Assembly: GCA_018831195.1 (NCBI GenBank)
Contig: JAHJDP010000085.1
Location: forward strand, 1-64,000
Direction: 5' to 3'
Origin: Candidatus Eisenbacteria bacterium
Lineage (GTDB): Bacteria; Eisenbacteria; RBG-16-71-46; CAIMUX01; JAHJDP01
Length of the DNA stretch: 64,000 bases
Below are positions 12,295-21,025 of this stretch, one piece after another; the first letter of the stretch is position 1; every line of letters begins with the position of its first letter. Position numbers and translations under genes: made by a program. The notes under the pieces were generated by a model. That model saw only the letters and a program-made list of their open reading frames with translations, was not told where the DNA came from and did not search any database.

Positions 12295-14409
12295 ATGCAC
12301 GCGCCAGGGGCGGAAATCTCAAGAGAAGTTCTATGGAATATCAAGGGGACGGGCTTTCCCATCGGCCCCATCCTCATGTACAGTTTCGCGGCCATCACCA
12401 TTTTCCTCTTCTTTCGCGGCCTGTCGCGCAGCGGCTTCTTCAACCGTCTGAAAATCGCAAAGCTGGCCACCGGGACCGATGTGGATCGAACCGGCAATCC
12501 CTGGGGACGATTTTGGTTTACAGCCGCAGATGTCTTCGCCCACCGGCGAATCCTGAAGGAACCCTACCAGGGCCTCTTTCACTTCTTCATTCTCTGGGGT
12601 TTCATCGCCCTCCTCATCACAACGACCATTGTCTTTCTTCAGGCCGATCTTATCTATCCCGTCTGGAAAGTCTGGTTTATGAAGGATGCTTTTTATCTCG
12701 GGCTTTCCCTCTTTGCCGATCTTTTCGGCCTCCTCGCCATCACCGGCGTCTCAATGGCCTTGGCCAGGAGACTCTTCTTCAAACCCAAATGGTTGGATGA
12801 GAAACCGGAAGATAATATCATCCTGTGGTCCTTTCTCGGCATCCTAGTCACCGGGTTCATTGTAGAAGGACTGCGGCTGCAGGCGACGGAGGTCAATCCG
12901 GCGAACCCGATGCATGCCCATATCTGGACCTCACCGGTGGGAAGGATGCTCGCCTACCTCCTATCGGGGATGAGTCTCTCCGCCATTTATATAACGCACA
13001 AGATTCTTTGGTGGTTTCATATTCTCGGCGCTTTCGCCTTTATTGTTTTCATCGCCTACTCAAAACTTTTCCACATGATCACCACACCGGTGAATATCTA
13101 TCTGCGGGCCCGGACCGCCCAGCCCCCCATCAAGACAATGCCGCCCGAGTCCTTCGAAGACGCTGAGACCTTCGGCATTCACAATATCGAGGAGTACTCC
13201 CGAAAGGATCTCTTTGACAGTGAGGCCTGCATGCGTTGCGGGCGGTGCGTCGAGGCCTGCCCCGCCTTCATGACCGATAAGCCGCTGGTGCCGAGAGATA
13301 TCATCCAGGATCTCCGCACCTATCTCGAGGCGAAGGCGAAGATGGTCACCGGTGACGACGGCATTTACAAAATCGTGCCGGATGAAGCTTACAAGGGCCC
13401 GGCATTGATCGGGGATACTATCAAAAAGGAAACGATCTGGTCTTGCGTCACCTGTATGGCCTGCGTGGAGGCCTGCCCCGCCTATATCCTCCAGTTCCCG
13501 AAATTGATCGATCTGCGGCGATATCTCGTCATGATGGAGTCGGATTTCCCCGCGGGGGTCGCCGACACCTTCAAAGGGATGGAAAGCCAATCCAATCCGT
13601 GGGGTCTCGGGGCGCATACCCGGGCCGAATGGGCCGATGGTTTGGATGTCCCGCTGCTGTCGGAGAAGGGTGAAGCCGAGTATCTCTTTTATGTCGGCTG
13701 CGCCGGTGCTCTGGATGACCTAAACAAAAAGAATGCCGTCGCCATGGTGAAGATCCTCAAGGCGGCCGGCGTCGACTTCGCCATCCTGGGCACAGAAGAG
13801 GGCTGCTGCGGCGATTCCGCAAAGAAGATGGGTAACGAGTACCTTTATCAGATGCTCGCAACGGCAAATATCGAAAAGTTTAAAGAGTACAAGGTCAAAA
13901 AGATCATCACGCTTTGTCCTCACGGCTATAACCTGCTCAAGCATGACTACAAGGAGCTCGACGGCGATTACGAGGTTTATCATTACACCGAGATTCTCGA
14001 CACCCTGATAAAAGAGGGCAAGCTCGCGCTGAAGAATCCCATTGATCATCTCGGAACCATCACCTACCACGACTCCTGCTACCTTGGACGGTATAACAAT
14101 ATCTATGATCAGCCCCGGAATATTCTCAAAGCCCTCAACTCCGGCCCCATCGTGGAGATGAAAGATCACCACCGCAAGAGCTTCTGTTGCGGAGCCGGCG
14201 GCGGGCGTATGTGGATGGAGGAAGATCTGGGGACAAGGATCAATCACACGCGAACAAAAGAAGTCCTGGACGCCGGCGCCAAAACGGTCTGCACGGCCTG
14301 TCCCTTCTGCCATACGATGCTCTCCGACGGGATCAAGGAACTCAATCTCGAGGAAAAGCTCACCGCGGTCGACATCGCGCCATTGGTGGCGAAGGCGGCG
14401 GGGCTGTAG
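12295..14409 (+). CDS. Membrane Fe-S oxidoreductase (HdrD/FadF-like, candidate ETF:menaquinone reductase)
   Basis: The 704-residue protein joins three modules. Residues 24-260 contain about five membrane segments resembling the cytochrome-b-like NarI domain. Two 4Fe-4S clusters follow, with cysteines 312/315/318/322 and 384/387/390/394. Two CCG domains end the protein (YVGCAG with GCCGDS, and DSCYLG with CCGAGGG), as in heterodisulfide reductase HdrD. Related proteins next to electron-transfer flavoproteins pass electrons from fatty-acid oxidation to menaquinone. No ETF genes lie here, so the partner is unknown. The ATG at 12295 follows a GGGGGG ribosome site. The 293-base upstream gap is A+T-rich near 12,220-12,260 and probably holds the promoter. 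Confidence 0.82.
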   Translation: MHAPGAEISREVLWNIKGTGFPIGPILMYSFAAITIFLFFRGLSRSGFFNRLKIAKLATGTDVDRTGNPWGRFWFTAADVFAHRRILKEPYQGLFHFFILWGFIALLITTTIVFLQADLIYPVWKVWFMKDAFYLGLSLFADLFGLLAITGVSMALARRLFFKPKWLDEKPEDNIILWSFLGILVTGFIVEGLRLQATEVNPANPMHAHIWTSPVGRMLAYLLSGMSLSAIYITHKILWWFHILGAFAFIVFIAYSKLFHMITTPVNIYLRARTAQPPIKTMPPESFEDAETFGIHNIEEYSRKDLFDSEACMRCGRCVEACPAFMTDKPLVPRDIIQDLRTYLEAKAKMVTGDDGIYKIVPDEAYKGPALIGDTIKKETIWSCVTCMACVEACPAYILQFPKLIDLRRYLVMMESDFPAGVADTFKGMESQSNPWGLGAHTRAEWADGLDVPLLSEKGEAEYLFYVGCAGALDDLNKKNAVAMVKILKAAGVDFAILGTEEGCCGDSAKKMGNEYLYQMLATANIEKFKEYKVKKIITLCPHGYNLLKHDYKELDGDYEVYHYTEILDTLIKEGKLALKNPIDHLGTITYHDSCYLGRYNNIYDQPRNILKALNSGPIVEMKDHHRKSFCCGAGGGRMWMEEDLGTRINHTRTKEVLDAGAKTVCTACPFCHTMLSDGIKELNLEEKLTAVDIAPLVAKAAGL

Positions 14410-16499: not shown

Positions 16500-16714
16500 C
16501 GATTAGATTCTCAGCTAAAAGAACCCCAAACCTTAAACGTAGGTCCGCCTCCTGAGGCTGTCAAGCCGTCCTCCCTGGAGCCAAAAGGCGCTTGGATCGT
16601 CTTTTAGAGGGAAGACCGCTTGAGATGGGGTTCTCGCGACCCTAAAATGCTGAAAGATTCAGGAGCTGAAATCGATAATTGAGCCAGGGGTCAAACGTTG
16701 GCGGGAGGTGCGCG

Positions 16715-17377
16715 ATGCTAAAGGTCGGCGTGATTTTGTCTGGATGCGGGGTTTTTGATGGAACGGAGATCCACGAGGCCGTGGCGGCTTTGATCGCCTT
16801 GGACCGGAAGGGTGCCGAGATCATCTACATGGCGCCCAACGGCCCGGCGATGCATGTCATCAATCATCTGTCGAACGAGACCACCGGCGAGAGCCGGAAT
16901 ATTCTTGTCGAGTCAGCCCGGATCGCCCGGGGCAATATTAGAGATCTCGCTGAAGTGAAGGCCGCCGATATCGACGCCCTGGTCATCCCGGGGGGGTTCG
17001 GCGCGGCGAAGAATCTCTGCAATTTCGCTGTTAAGGGGGCCGACTGCGTAGCCCATCCCCAGGTCGCCCGGTTGATTCGCGAGGTGCACCGGGCCGGCAA
17101 GCCGATCGGAGCGATGTGTATCGCTCCCGCCCTGGTCGCCCGTGTGCTCGGCCGGGATGTCGCGCATCTCGAGCTCACAATCGGCAACGACCCGGGAACA
17201 GCAAAGGCTCTGGAAGCGATGGGGGCGTATCACATCAATAAATCGGTGAAGGAAGTCCACGTCGATGTAAAAAACCGCGTCGTCACCACCCCGGCCTATA
17301 TGTTAGGTTCCAGGGTCAGCGAGATCGCGGCCGGCGCCGATAAGTTGGTGGAGGAACTTCTGCGCCTCGTGTCATAG
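16715..17377 (+). CDS. elbB: ElbB/ES1-like DJ-1 superfamily protein (isoprenoid biosynthesis-associated)
   Basis: This 220-residue protein is in the DJ-1/PfpI superfamily. It shows the ElbB-type start GCGVFDGTEIHEA at 10-22, PGGFGAAKN at 92-100 and the nucleophile elbow GAMCIAPAL at 132-140 (Cys135). The family has been linked to isoprenoid synthesis and to glyoxalase activity; which applies here is not settled. ATG 16715 follows GGGAGG; a TTG at 16679 in the same frame is less likely. The PolX-like gene begins 20 bases downstream, so the two may be co-transcribed. Its divergent neighbour is dxs, which fits the isoprenoid link. Confidence 0.85.
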   Translation: MLKVGVILSGCGVFDGTEIHEAVAALIALDRKGAEIIYMAPNGPAMHVINHLSNETTGESRNILVESARIARGNIRDLAEVKAADIDALVIPGGFGAAKNLCNFAVKGADCVAHPQVARLIREVHRAGKPIGAMCIAPALVARVLGRDVAHLELTIGNDPGTAKALEAMGAYHINKSVKEVHVDVKNRVVTTPAYMLGSRVSEIAAGADKLVEELLRLVS

Positions 17378-17396
17378 ATAAGTGTAAGGGATGTGC

Positions 17397-19124
17397 ATGG
17401 CCATAGATGGAACAACAGCGGCGGAACTGCTGCAAAGAGTGGCGCTTTATTGCGAACTGCTCGGTGAAAATCCGTTCAAAATACGCGCCTACGCCAATGC
17501 GTCTCGTATTGTTAAAGAGATGGCGCCCGAGGATCTCGCGACCCTGATCCGCGGGGAAGGACCGAAAATCCCCGGGATCGGAAAAGGGATGCTGGCCGAC
17601 ATTCAGGAGCTGTTCGCCACGGATAAATTGGAGTTATTGGAAACACTGCAAACGCAGGTTCCGGAGGGGCTTCTTGAAATCCTTCGGATCCCCGGGTTGG
17701 GTCCCCGCAAAGTGCGGACACTCTGGAAGGAACTCGGGATCACCCACCCGGGCGAACTCGAATATGCCTGCCAGGAGAACCATCTCGTCACCCTCTCCGG
17801 TTTCGGTCCGAAATCCCAACACAAGATTCTTGAGGGCCTGCTCTGGAGAAAATGGATTGCCGGATGGTTTCTCCGTTCTAAAATGGAAGACGCCGGCACC
17901 TTGATCACGGCGACCCTTCTCAACGATTCCGACGCGCTTCAGGTAGAGGTCGCGGGCGAGATCCGCCGGTCCATGGAGATTGTCCGGGGGATCACCATGG
18001 TGGCGTCTATGGAGAATCCCCAAAAATCCCTGCCCCCTCTCGCCGCCAAATTTCCCGATGCGACACTCGATAAAAACATCATCCGGCTTCAGCTCAAAGA
18101 CTCGATTCCCGCCGAGATCCACGCCGTCACACCGGACCTCTTTCCGCTCGCTCTTTGGCGTCTCACCGGCTCCAAAGAACACTGCCGGAATGTCACGGCC
18201 CATGCGGCGGACCGCGGTTGGGACATCGGTGAGACGGCCCTTCGCCGGAACGGTGAGGTCATCAAACCGGCATCGGAGGAAGAGTTATACAATATTCTCG
18301 ATCTCCCATGGATCCCTCCGGCATTAAGGGAGGCCGATGAGCATGGGCCGTCGGTTCTGCCGCAAGAGATCCCGCGTCTCTTGAGAATCGACGATCTTGA
18401 AGGGCTCCTCCATGTCCACACGAAGTGGAGCGACGGCGCCGAGACTTTGGAAACGATGGTCGGGGCCGCCGCAGAGATGGGATGCAGTTATATCGGCATT
18501 ACCGACCACTCTCAAAGCGCCTTTTACGCCAATGGCCTGACACCGGACCGCCTGATGCGGCAGGCTGAAGAGATAGAGAAGCTTCGGAAACGCTACCCCA
18601 AGATCGAGATCTGGCACGGCACCGAATCGGATATCCTCTCCGACGGCTCGCTCGATTTCCCCGACGAAGTGTTAAAGTCGCTGGATTTCGTCATCGGGTC
18701 GATCCACAGCCAGTTGCATATGGATTCCGAAGTCATGACGCGCCGGCTCATCAACGCGGTCAACAATCCCTATATGGACATTTTAGGCCATCCCACCGGG
18801 CGGCTTCTGCTGGCCCGGGAAACCAGCACGCCGGATATGGAGGCGATCCTAAAAGCCGCGGCGGAGACCGGAACGATCATCGAATTCAACGCCAATCCGT
18901 ACCGGCAGGATCTCGATTGGCGCTGGATCCCGAAGGCCAGGCAGCTGGGCGTTTTGATCTCGGTGAATCCCGACGCCCACAATGTCTCGGGGCTGACTCA
19001 CATCGACTACGGTATCAACACGTCCATCAAGGGGCGGCTCGGACCCGAGGGGACCTTTAACGCATTGAAACCGGAAGAAGCCCGGAAGCGGCTCAAACGG
19101 TACCGGATGAAGGTCGCCCACTGA
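17397..19124 (+). CDS. PolX-like protein with degenerate polymerase site and intact PHP domain
   Basis: The layout is that of bacterial family X polymerase: an 8-kDa-like helical domain, helix-hairpin-helix motifs (IPGIGKG and IPGLGPRK), a palm, then a PHP phosphoesterase. The palm is altered. Where active enzymes have GS-xRRG then GDxD, this protein has GEIRRS and RGITMV at about 187-202, and the third acidic strand (vDLR) reads AEIH. Thus all three metal-binding aspartates are lost. The TGSKEH motif survives. The PHP metal ligands are complete: HVHTKWSD, ITDHS, HGTESDI, IGSIHS, GHPTG and NPDAH. The likely activity is a 3'-5' exonuclease or phosphoesterase on DNA, not synthesis. ATG 17397 is spaced better from AAGGG than the ATG at 17391. 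The nth gene follows 28 bases later. Confidence 0.85.
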   Translation: MAIDGTTAAELLQRVALYCELLGENPFKIRAYANASRIVKEMAPEDLATLIRGEGPKIPGIGKGMLADIQELFATDKLELLETLQTQVPEGLLEILRIPGLGPRKVRTLWKELGITHPGELEYACQENHLVTLSGFGPKSQHKILEGLLWRKWIAGWFLRSKMEDAGTLITATLLNDSDALQVEVAGEIRRSMEIVRGITMVASMENPQKSLPPLAAKFPDATLDKNIIRLQLKDSIPAEIHAVTPDLFPLALWRLTGSKEHCRNVTAHAADRGWDIGETALRRNGEVIKPASEEELYNILDLPWIPPALREADEHGPSVLPQEIPRLLRIDDLEGLLHVHTKWSDGAETLETMVGAAAEMGCSYIGITDHSQSAFYANGLTPDRLMRQAEEIEKLRKRYPKIEIWHGTESDILSDGSLDFPDEVLKSLDFVIGSIHSQLHMDSEVMTRRLINAVNNPYMDILGHPTGRLLLARETSTPDMEAILKAAAETGTIIEFNANPYRQDLDWRWIPKARQLGVLISVNPDAHNVSGLTHIDYGINTSIKGRLGPEGTFNALKPEEARKRLKRYRMKVAH

Positions 19125-19152: not shown

Positions 19153-19830
19153 ATGACACCGAAAGGCAGCGCTTGGGTCCCCACGCCACCCTCGCCCGCA
19201 GAAAAGAAGCGGGCGCTCCGGCTTCATCGCGTCTTGGCCAAAGCCTATCCCGACACCCGCTGTTTCCTCAATTTCACGAATCCCTGGGAACTCCTCGTCG
19301 CCACGATTCTGTCGGCGCAATGCACCGACGCGCGGGTCAACATGGTGACGCCGAACCTCTTCAAAGAACTGCCGTCCGTTGAGAAGGCGGCAAAAGTAAA
19401 CCCGGCCAGGCTCGAAAAGTTGATTCACTCCACGGGCTTTTACAAAAACAAATCAAAGAGCATCAAGGGGGCGGCGCAGCAGCTGATCGAACGTTTTGAC
19501 GGCAAAATGCCCGAGACGCTTGAAGAGCTGGTGACCCTTCCCGGTGTGGGAAGAAAAACAGCGAATGTGATTCTTGGAAACGCCTTCGGGATCCCCGGTA
19601 TCACCGTTGATACGCATGTAAGAAGGGTGTCGCAAAGACTTGATTTCACAAAAGAAACCGACCCCGACCGGATTGAGCAGGATCTTATGCTGCGGATTCC
19701 TCAAAAAGAATGGACGGATTTCAGCCACCGGACGATTCTGCATGGACGCACGGTCTGTGATTCGAGAAAGCCGAAATGTGAGGATTGTCCGCTGCTAAGA
19801 GATTGCCCGTATCCTCAATCACATCCCTAA
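19153..19830 (+). CDS. nth: Endonuclease III (DNA glycosylase/AP lyase)
   Basis: This base-excision repair enzyme removes oxidised pyrimidines. The 225-residue protein has the helix-hairpin-helix LPGVGRKTANVI at 129-140 with catalytic Lys135, the VDTHV segment with Asp153, and the C-terminal 4Fe-4S loop (Cys202, 209, 212, 218, spacing C-x6-C-x2-C-x5-C). All key residues are present. It is transcribed after the PolX-like gene, whose PHP domain may also act on damaged DNA, so the pair forms a plausible repair operon with elbB at its head. Confidence 0.95.
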   Translation: MTPKGSAWVPTPPSPAEKKRALRLHRVLAKAYPDTRCFLNFTNPWELLVATILSAQCTDARVNMVTPNLFKELPSVEKAAKVNPARLEKLIHSTGFYKNKSKSIKGAAQQLIERFDGKMPETLEELVTLPGVGRKTANVILGNAFGIPGITVDTHVRRVSQRLDFTKETDPDRIEQDLMLRIPQKEWTDFSHRTILHGRTVCDSRKPKCEDCPLLRDCPYPQSHP

Positions 19831-19885: not shown

Positions 19886-21025
19886 CTAGTAAGAGAGCTG
19901 CCACTCGGCCATCCATGAAGTCGTTGTGTCGTAGGCGGGATCTTGGACCCAATCGATCTGCGGGCCGATCCGGATCCGGCTGTTTTTGTGCAGATAAAAG
20001 GTCATTGTCCCTGTCCATCGGGCCAGCCCATCTCCGCGGCCCCGCGCGCGGCTTTCATTCGGCTCGAGGTATTCGGCGCGCAGGCCGATTTCCATTTTGT
20101 GTAACCCAAGAAAACGCCGCGGCGAACTCAATAAGGCCATTCCCCTCAAGCCATGGCCCCGGTCATCGAACTCCGAAACGGAAAGCCGGGGATCCACAGC
20201 CCAGGTGAGCCACTCGCCTTCGAAGCTAAGCGAGTGCCATTCAACGGCAAGCCCCAGCATGGCGGCCACAGCCTTTTTCTCATCGATCCGTGGGACATCG
20301 GGGCGCGATTTCCATTGGATGGCGCCGATCAGACTTCCGATCCCTTTCCGATTCAGAACCAGGTTGAGAACAAGATCGCTCATTCCATCGCTGATCCGGC
20401 CCTGATTCGCCCCCTCTCCATTCATGAGGGAAAGGCTCATCTGAGCCCGCCATTTCGATTTCTTCATTGTATAACGCGCTTCGGCCCCGACATCACGGCC
20501 CGCATACCCAAGTTTCCTGAGATGGTCGGATAGGAGGCCGCGCTCGATCACCGGCAGGGATCTCGATGAGGTCTCTTCCTCCAGAAGGAAGGCCTTCTTG
20601 AATTGCCCGGCCCGGATTCGGAATTTCGGATGGGGCCGCGCCTCGAGAATGACATCTTTAAGCGCCCGTGCGCTCTGCGCGGTGTCGGAAAGACCCAAAT
20701 CACTCAGATCGACATCCAGCTCGAATCGAAGTTCGCTTTGGATGCGGCCCTCAAGCTGAAGCCGTGCCCGGCGGACGCTGAAGCTCCCGAACGTCCCACC
20801 CTCCTGATACCGGACCTGTAAATAACCTCCCAGCTCCAGCTGCTCGGCCCGGCCGGGCAGCACCAGCACCGTGTCGGCGTCGCCGGCGGCAAAGCACAGC
20901 GCGGGGGTGAGCAGACAGAGTATCAATACGGAGGCAGCCCCTGCAGAGCGGCGTCGTGCGGATTGATGGCGGAACAATGGAACTCGAGGCGCTTGAAGCC
21001 GGATAAATAGTTTCAATTTTCTCAT
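19886..21025 (-). CDS. Outer-membrane porin of the OprO/OprP type
   Basis: The 379 residues begin with a long signal sequence (basic start, hydrophobic VLILCLLTPALCFAAG near 33-48). Alternating beta strands follow, starting with ELGGYLQVRYQEGG and FSVRRARLQLEG, which is the usual opening of phosphate-selective porin family proteins. The last residues, SWMAEWQLSY, end in an aromatic as outer-membrane barrels do. It is slightly shorter than typical OprP-type porins. The ATG shares one base with the stop of the upstream methyltransferase (TGATG). The specific solute is not evident, and no phosphate-uptake genes are nearby. Confidence 0.78.
   Translation of the reverse strand: MRKLKLFIRLQAPRVPLFRHQSARRRSAGAASVLILCLLTPALCFAAGDADTVLVLPGRAEQLELGGYLQVRYQEGGTFGSFSVRRARLQLEGRIQSELRFELDVDLSDLGLSDTAQSARALKDVILEARPHPKFRIRAGQFKKAFLLEEETSSRSLPVIERGLLSDHLRKLGYAGRDVGAEARYTMKKSKWRAQMSLSLMNGEGANQGRISDGMSDLVLNLVLNRKGIGSLIGAIQWKSRPDVPRIDEKKAVAAMLGLAVEWHSLSFEGEWLTWAVDPRLSVSEFDDRGHGLRGMALLSSPRRFLGLHKMEIGLRAEYLEPNESRARGRGDGLARWTGTMTFYLHKNSRIRIGPQIDWVQDPAYDTTTSWMAEWQLSY

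Follow-up and report, generated by a model that had tools for sequence, protein, structure and literature searches.

A PolX with a replaced palm triad and a complete PHP nuclease site lies beside nth in a Candidatus Eisenbacteria genome

A noncanonical class of PolX was defined in 2022 (PMC9226535). As its authors describe it in the main text, the PolX proteins of D. radiodurans and D. gobiensis lack polymerase activity and are strong Mn-dependent 3'-5' exonucleases, deletions in the palm and fingers are common in the class without being universal (a fingers deletion is not required), and several independent losses were suggested. The same text ties the class to NHEJ, and the PolX neighbours it names are ligD, mutS2/zapA and an archaeal ligase, with no mention there of nth. 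In B. subtilis PolX, five basic residues of the PHP domain are required for the exonuclease, AP-endonuclease and 3'-end activities, and 3'-phosphodiesterase activity belongs to the PHP domains of PolX (PMC6616362). There are also PolX-like proteins without a polymerase region (PMC12926913). Here we describe a PolX of the noncanonical kind from a Candidatus Eisenbacteria bacterium (GCA_018831195.1) and compare its locus with these systems. The window analysed is the whole stretch of 64,000 nucleotides at positions 1 to 64,000 of contig JAHJDP010000085.1.

The polX gene (17397..19124, + strand) is an uninterrupted reading frame of 575 codons. Its 575-aa product exceeded the curated cut-off of NF006375 (1.4e-132) as an end-to-end PolX. 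The start at 17397, which has AAGGG about 6 bases ahead of it, was for that reason preferred over an alternative ATG at 17391. This is the sole full PolX in the 5.24-Mb, 99%-complete genome; a second, weaker match on contig 12 covers PHP only. The nearest solved structures are the PolX of D. radiodurans (2w9m, 313.8 bits) and that of T. thermophilus (3au2, 300.9 bits), and PolXs from a scan of named genomes were only 30-40% identical. Pfam models for an 8-kDa-type HhH, a thumb-type HhH, the Pol-beta 'thumb' and PHP all matched the product. The 8-kDa-like N-terminal HhH domain occupies 17421..17627 (+, residues 9-77; PF14716, 2.7e-11) and the thumb-type HhH region 17676..17840 (+, residues 94-148; PF14520, 3.4e-6). 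Both helix-hairpin-helix motifs, IPGIGKG and IPGLGPRK, are intact, as the preliminary description of this DNA had stated. In the alignment column equivalent to the lyase Lys72 of Pol beta, the protein has Asp68.

The polymerase site is broken. The triad is numbered according to T. thermophilus PolX, in an alignment of about 75 sequences that included the two solved PolXs. Palm motif 1, GEIRRSMEIVRGIT (17955..17996, +, residues 187-200), carries S188E, D198G and D200T, the T. thermophilus stretch CGSARRYKDTVGDLDF being aligned with AGEIRRSMEIVRGITM. The strand of the third acid reads QVDLRVV in T. thermophilus and PAEIHAV here, with Glu240 replacing Asp (18114..18116, +, assigned by alignment columns). 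The triad D198/D200/D240, which was D-D-D in 61/61 canonical rows of the trimmed alignment set, is G-T-E (G198, T200, E240) in this protein. The preliminary description had all three catalytic aspartates lost. The comparison with T. thermophilus PolX and with order and class relatives bore this out in that no Asp remains at the triad (D198G, D200T and D240E against D-D-D); the claim went too far for the third catalytic acid, which is kept as a conservative Glu. Nor was a shift of the acids to neighbouring positions observed: residues 195-203 (IVRGITMVA) were searched for an acid and contain none.

Changes at the dNTP site accompany those in the triad. The fingers dNTP motif RLTGSKEHC (18159..18185, +, residues 255-263) carries Y255R, F256L and N263C, to which S188E is added in the palm; R242H is also present. 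T257, G258, S259 and K260 are unchanged, as is the R190-R191 pair. Measured with our own boundaries, the palm has 75 residues compared to 78 in T. thermophilus, and the fingers, with 47 residues in both, have no deletion. Because Glu240 and G258/S259/K260 are kept, many noncanonical PolXs show a more thorough decay of the dNTP site than this one.

The PHP nuclease domain (18408..19100, +, about residues 338-568; PF02811, 8.6e-12) has all nine metal ligands of the HHHEHHEDH set (H339, H341, H371, E410, H437, H465, E496, D526 and H528), and the complete PHP active site noted in the preliminary description was thus recovered by alignment. The basic path is likewise present in full (R469, R474, N498, R503 and K545), matched by alignment columns and equal spacing with the B. 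subtilis sequence itself standing outside the alignment. Identity to canonical PolXs was 24% over the palm and fingers, where canonical sequences share 47% with one another, but 40% over the PHP domain, where the canonical value is again 47%; the average PHP identity to order relatives was 45%. These domain identities show on which part selection acts. As in the PolX-like proteins without a polymerase region (PMC12926913), selection appears to act more strongly on PHP function than on polymerase function, although the present protein retains its polymerase core, which is predicted to fold.

An AlphaFold2 model (mean pLDDT 89.9) has a complete palm sheet with its strands in place. The best full-length fit found by Foldseek was to T. 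thermophilus PolX (3au6_A, TM 0.82, rmsd 4.8), compared to TM 0.66 and an rmsd of about 15 for D. radiodurans 2w9m; the poorer fit reflects a different arrangement of the domains in the model. The closed arrangement predicted here, like that of T. thermophilus PolX and unlike the extended 2w9m, is not firm, since the alignment given to the predictor consisted of canonical sequences apart from the query, and it would be no evidence against an extended D. radiodurans shape.

Set beside the described systems, the protein shares domain order, fold, PHP site and basic path with canonical PolX (T. thermophilus 3au2/3au6 and B. subtilis) but lacks the D-D-D triad, the steric-gate Tyr/His and Asn263. 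It resembles the D. radiodurans and D. gobiensis proteins in that palm acids and dNTP-site residues are replaced and the HHHEHHEDH ligands and N-terminal domains are kept, and it shares a Glu as third acid with the D. radiodurans protein (AEE). It differs from them in its GTE triad, in a palm that is about 3 residues short with fingers of full length, and in its setting next to nth in a genome without NHEJ genes. With triad acids and dNTP-binding residues replaced and PHP ligands kept, it falls in the noncanonical class; it has neither the three palm acids of a canonical PolX polymerase nor, in its genome, the Ku and LigD that accompany an NHEJ-linked PolX.

Palm alteration is general in the order to which this genome belongs. 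Every PolX of the order with a readable palm is altered, the triads being ELR, LTE, EVR and RVE besides GTE, and each of these other PolXs has 9/9 PHP ligands; class relatives outside the order are D-D-D. The recurrence of this kind of palm change in order relatives, together with an invariant PHP site, argues for more than chance. Placing the five sequences of the order in a single clade was not rejected and gave a likelihood above that of the free search (p-AU 0.681). One palm loss in the ancestor of the order fits this result; the branches are long and the single loss is not established. The hypothesis that all altered PolXs share one origin passed the test in an initial, smaller tree (p-AU 0.104) but was rejected in a wider 58-row sample (p-AU 0.0006) from which the palm and fingers columns were excluded. 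On the wider tree 14 changes were counted, at least 4 of which are forced by well-supported branches. The query grouped near D. radiodurans in one tree and elsewhere in broader trees, in which Bacteroidetes were not knowingly sampled.

Two candidate markers of the altered class, the signature G-[DE]-x-R-R and absence of the Lys72 equivalent, were shared by all of the first 12 altered sequences and failed in the wider set. In many altered PolXs (five loci besides window 17958-17960) Asp or Glu replaces Ser188 of GSxRR, a change seen in none of the three-acid PolXs examined; it seems recurrent after palm loss. In three altered PolXs from family f4 of the same order the first N-terminal HhH is degenerate (GLSDES, RLDADV and SIASPL), and decay in these proteins thus extends past the palm.

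The polX gene lies between elbB and nth, all three on one strand. elbB, encoding an isoprenoid biosynthesis glyoxalase (16679..17377, +; NF008747, 3.2e-94), ends 19 bp upstream and adjoins polX in three order relatives too; across the order genomes dxs, often with elbB, is found on the side of polX opposite nth. nth, encoding endonuclease III (19153..19830, +; TIGR01083, 4.8e-76), begins 28 bp downstream, and its product has the LPGVGRKTAN motif, VDTH and the four-Cys cluster loop. Nth is a bifunctional glycosylase/AP lyase. Elsewhere in the window, 12295-14409 encodes a 704-aa membrane-anchored iron-sulfur protein that resembles electron-transfer subunits of the heterodisulfide-reductase/LdhH/TmcB type and scores far below every curated cut-off, and 19886-21025, on the opposite strand, encodes a 379-aa predicted outer-membrane porin-like protein with no NCBIfam match.

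nth directly follows polX in all six order genomes that carry both genes, the query included; in the seventh order genome with a clear PolX, no nth exceeded the cut-off genome-wide. Outside the order, 60 loci of other groups were selected by similarity to the query, and in 20 of them nth immediately follows polX in the same orientation. Within the taxonomic class, nth did not adjoin polX in those canonical PolX loci that were examined, and in the named loci examined it was absent beside polX except for one weak nth-like match (34%) upstream. Adjacency to nth was considered as a mark of dead PolX and rejected (7/16 altered against 13/44 three-acid loci, the rows being related). The possible repair operon suggested in the preliminary description accordingly stands as a real nth on the same strand, in a pair conserved both within and outside the order. 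Our literature search found no paper on the polX-nth pair; the conserved pairing is the new detail, the polymerase-dead kind of PolX having been known since 2022.

We consider it likely that this is a noncanonical PolX, a dead polymerase joined to a PHP nuclease, which takes part in base excision repair started by Nth and there cleans 3' ends or AP sites. By analogy with the assayed Deinococcus members, whose palm acids are likewise replaced and whose PHP site is kept, there is good support for an inactive polymerase and an active nuclease, and a polymerase turned dedicated nuclease, as first proposed from the DNA, is the best reading of the protein. The Pol-beta-like core would keep its fold but be unable to run the two-metal polymerase reaction, and the HhH domains and dead palm probably hold nicked, gapped or AP-containing DNA. 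The PHP metallonuclease fused to them would then act on the 3' side as a 3'-5' exonuclease, 3'-phosphodiesterase or AP endonuclease. Its most likely partner is Nth, which removes an oxidised base and cuts the abasic site; endonuclease III leaves a 3'-blocked end, and this end has to be cleaned before another polymerase and a DNA ligase finish the repair. That PolX acts on Nth products is somewhat favoured but less certain than the nuclease step, since the evidence for the partnership is gene order. Nor does PolX have to be the principal enzyme that cleans 3' ends, as the query genome has nfo (xth is absent) and some other order genomes with the polX-nth pair carry xth. More tentatively, and with the balance slightly against it, polX-nth may be an old, widespread base excision repair pair in which PolX cleans the 3' ends made by Nth and the polymerase half was lost on several independent occasions without the two genes separating; that half would be dispensable because 3'-end cleaning requires only the PHP nuclease.

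The same dead polymerase and working nuclease could instead serve double-strand-break repair by trimming ends. Noncanonical PolXs are found together with NHEJ genes and adjoin ligD in Alphaproteobacteria, as the main text of PMC9226535 reports, ligD was observed beside noncanonical PolX in plasmid loci too, and polX of D. radiodurans matters for radioresistance. The query genome, however, which is 99% complete, contains no Ku and no LigD or other ATP-dependent ligase domain, and the neighbour of polX is nth rather than ligD. Ku was found in 0/8 order genomes with a PolX match and, within the order, only in family f3, where whole-genome searches of three genomes gave no PolX match, Ku in 2/3 and xth in 3/3. 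With no Ku or LigD in this genome and no Ku in the PolX-bearing genomes of the order, the NHEJ role proposed for the class misfits the query genome, and we regard service in break repair as unlikely; Ku-free end trimming in homologous repair is a possible form of it.

Could the palm retain weak or altered nucleotidyl transfer that uses Glu240 and other ligands? Glu240, the TGSK residues and the RR pair are kept and the palm is near normal in length, but the GDxD strand has lost its two acids and no neighbouring residue supplies a substitute, and D. radiodurans PolX, with two acids left in its AEE triad, still has no polymerase activity (PMC9226535); we judge residual transfer highly improbable. 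A decaying gene, on its way to becoming a pseudogene and serving no selected function, would account for the long branch. We give it hardly any weight against a full-length frame, a full set of PHP ligands and basic residues, PHP conservation among order relatives, and retention and synteny throughout the order.

Reading the protein as a PHP nuclease with a dead polymerase, acting in Nth-initiated repair, extends the known polymerase-dead PolX nucleases to a new lineage and supports the recurrence of palm loss across several lineages. It also offers a concrete source of substrate, Nth, in genomes without NHEJ, and hence an alternative to the class's proposed NHEJ role that can be put to the test.
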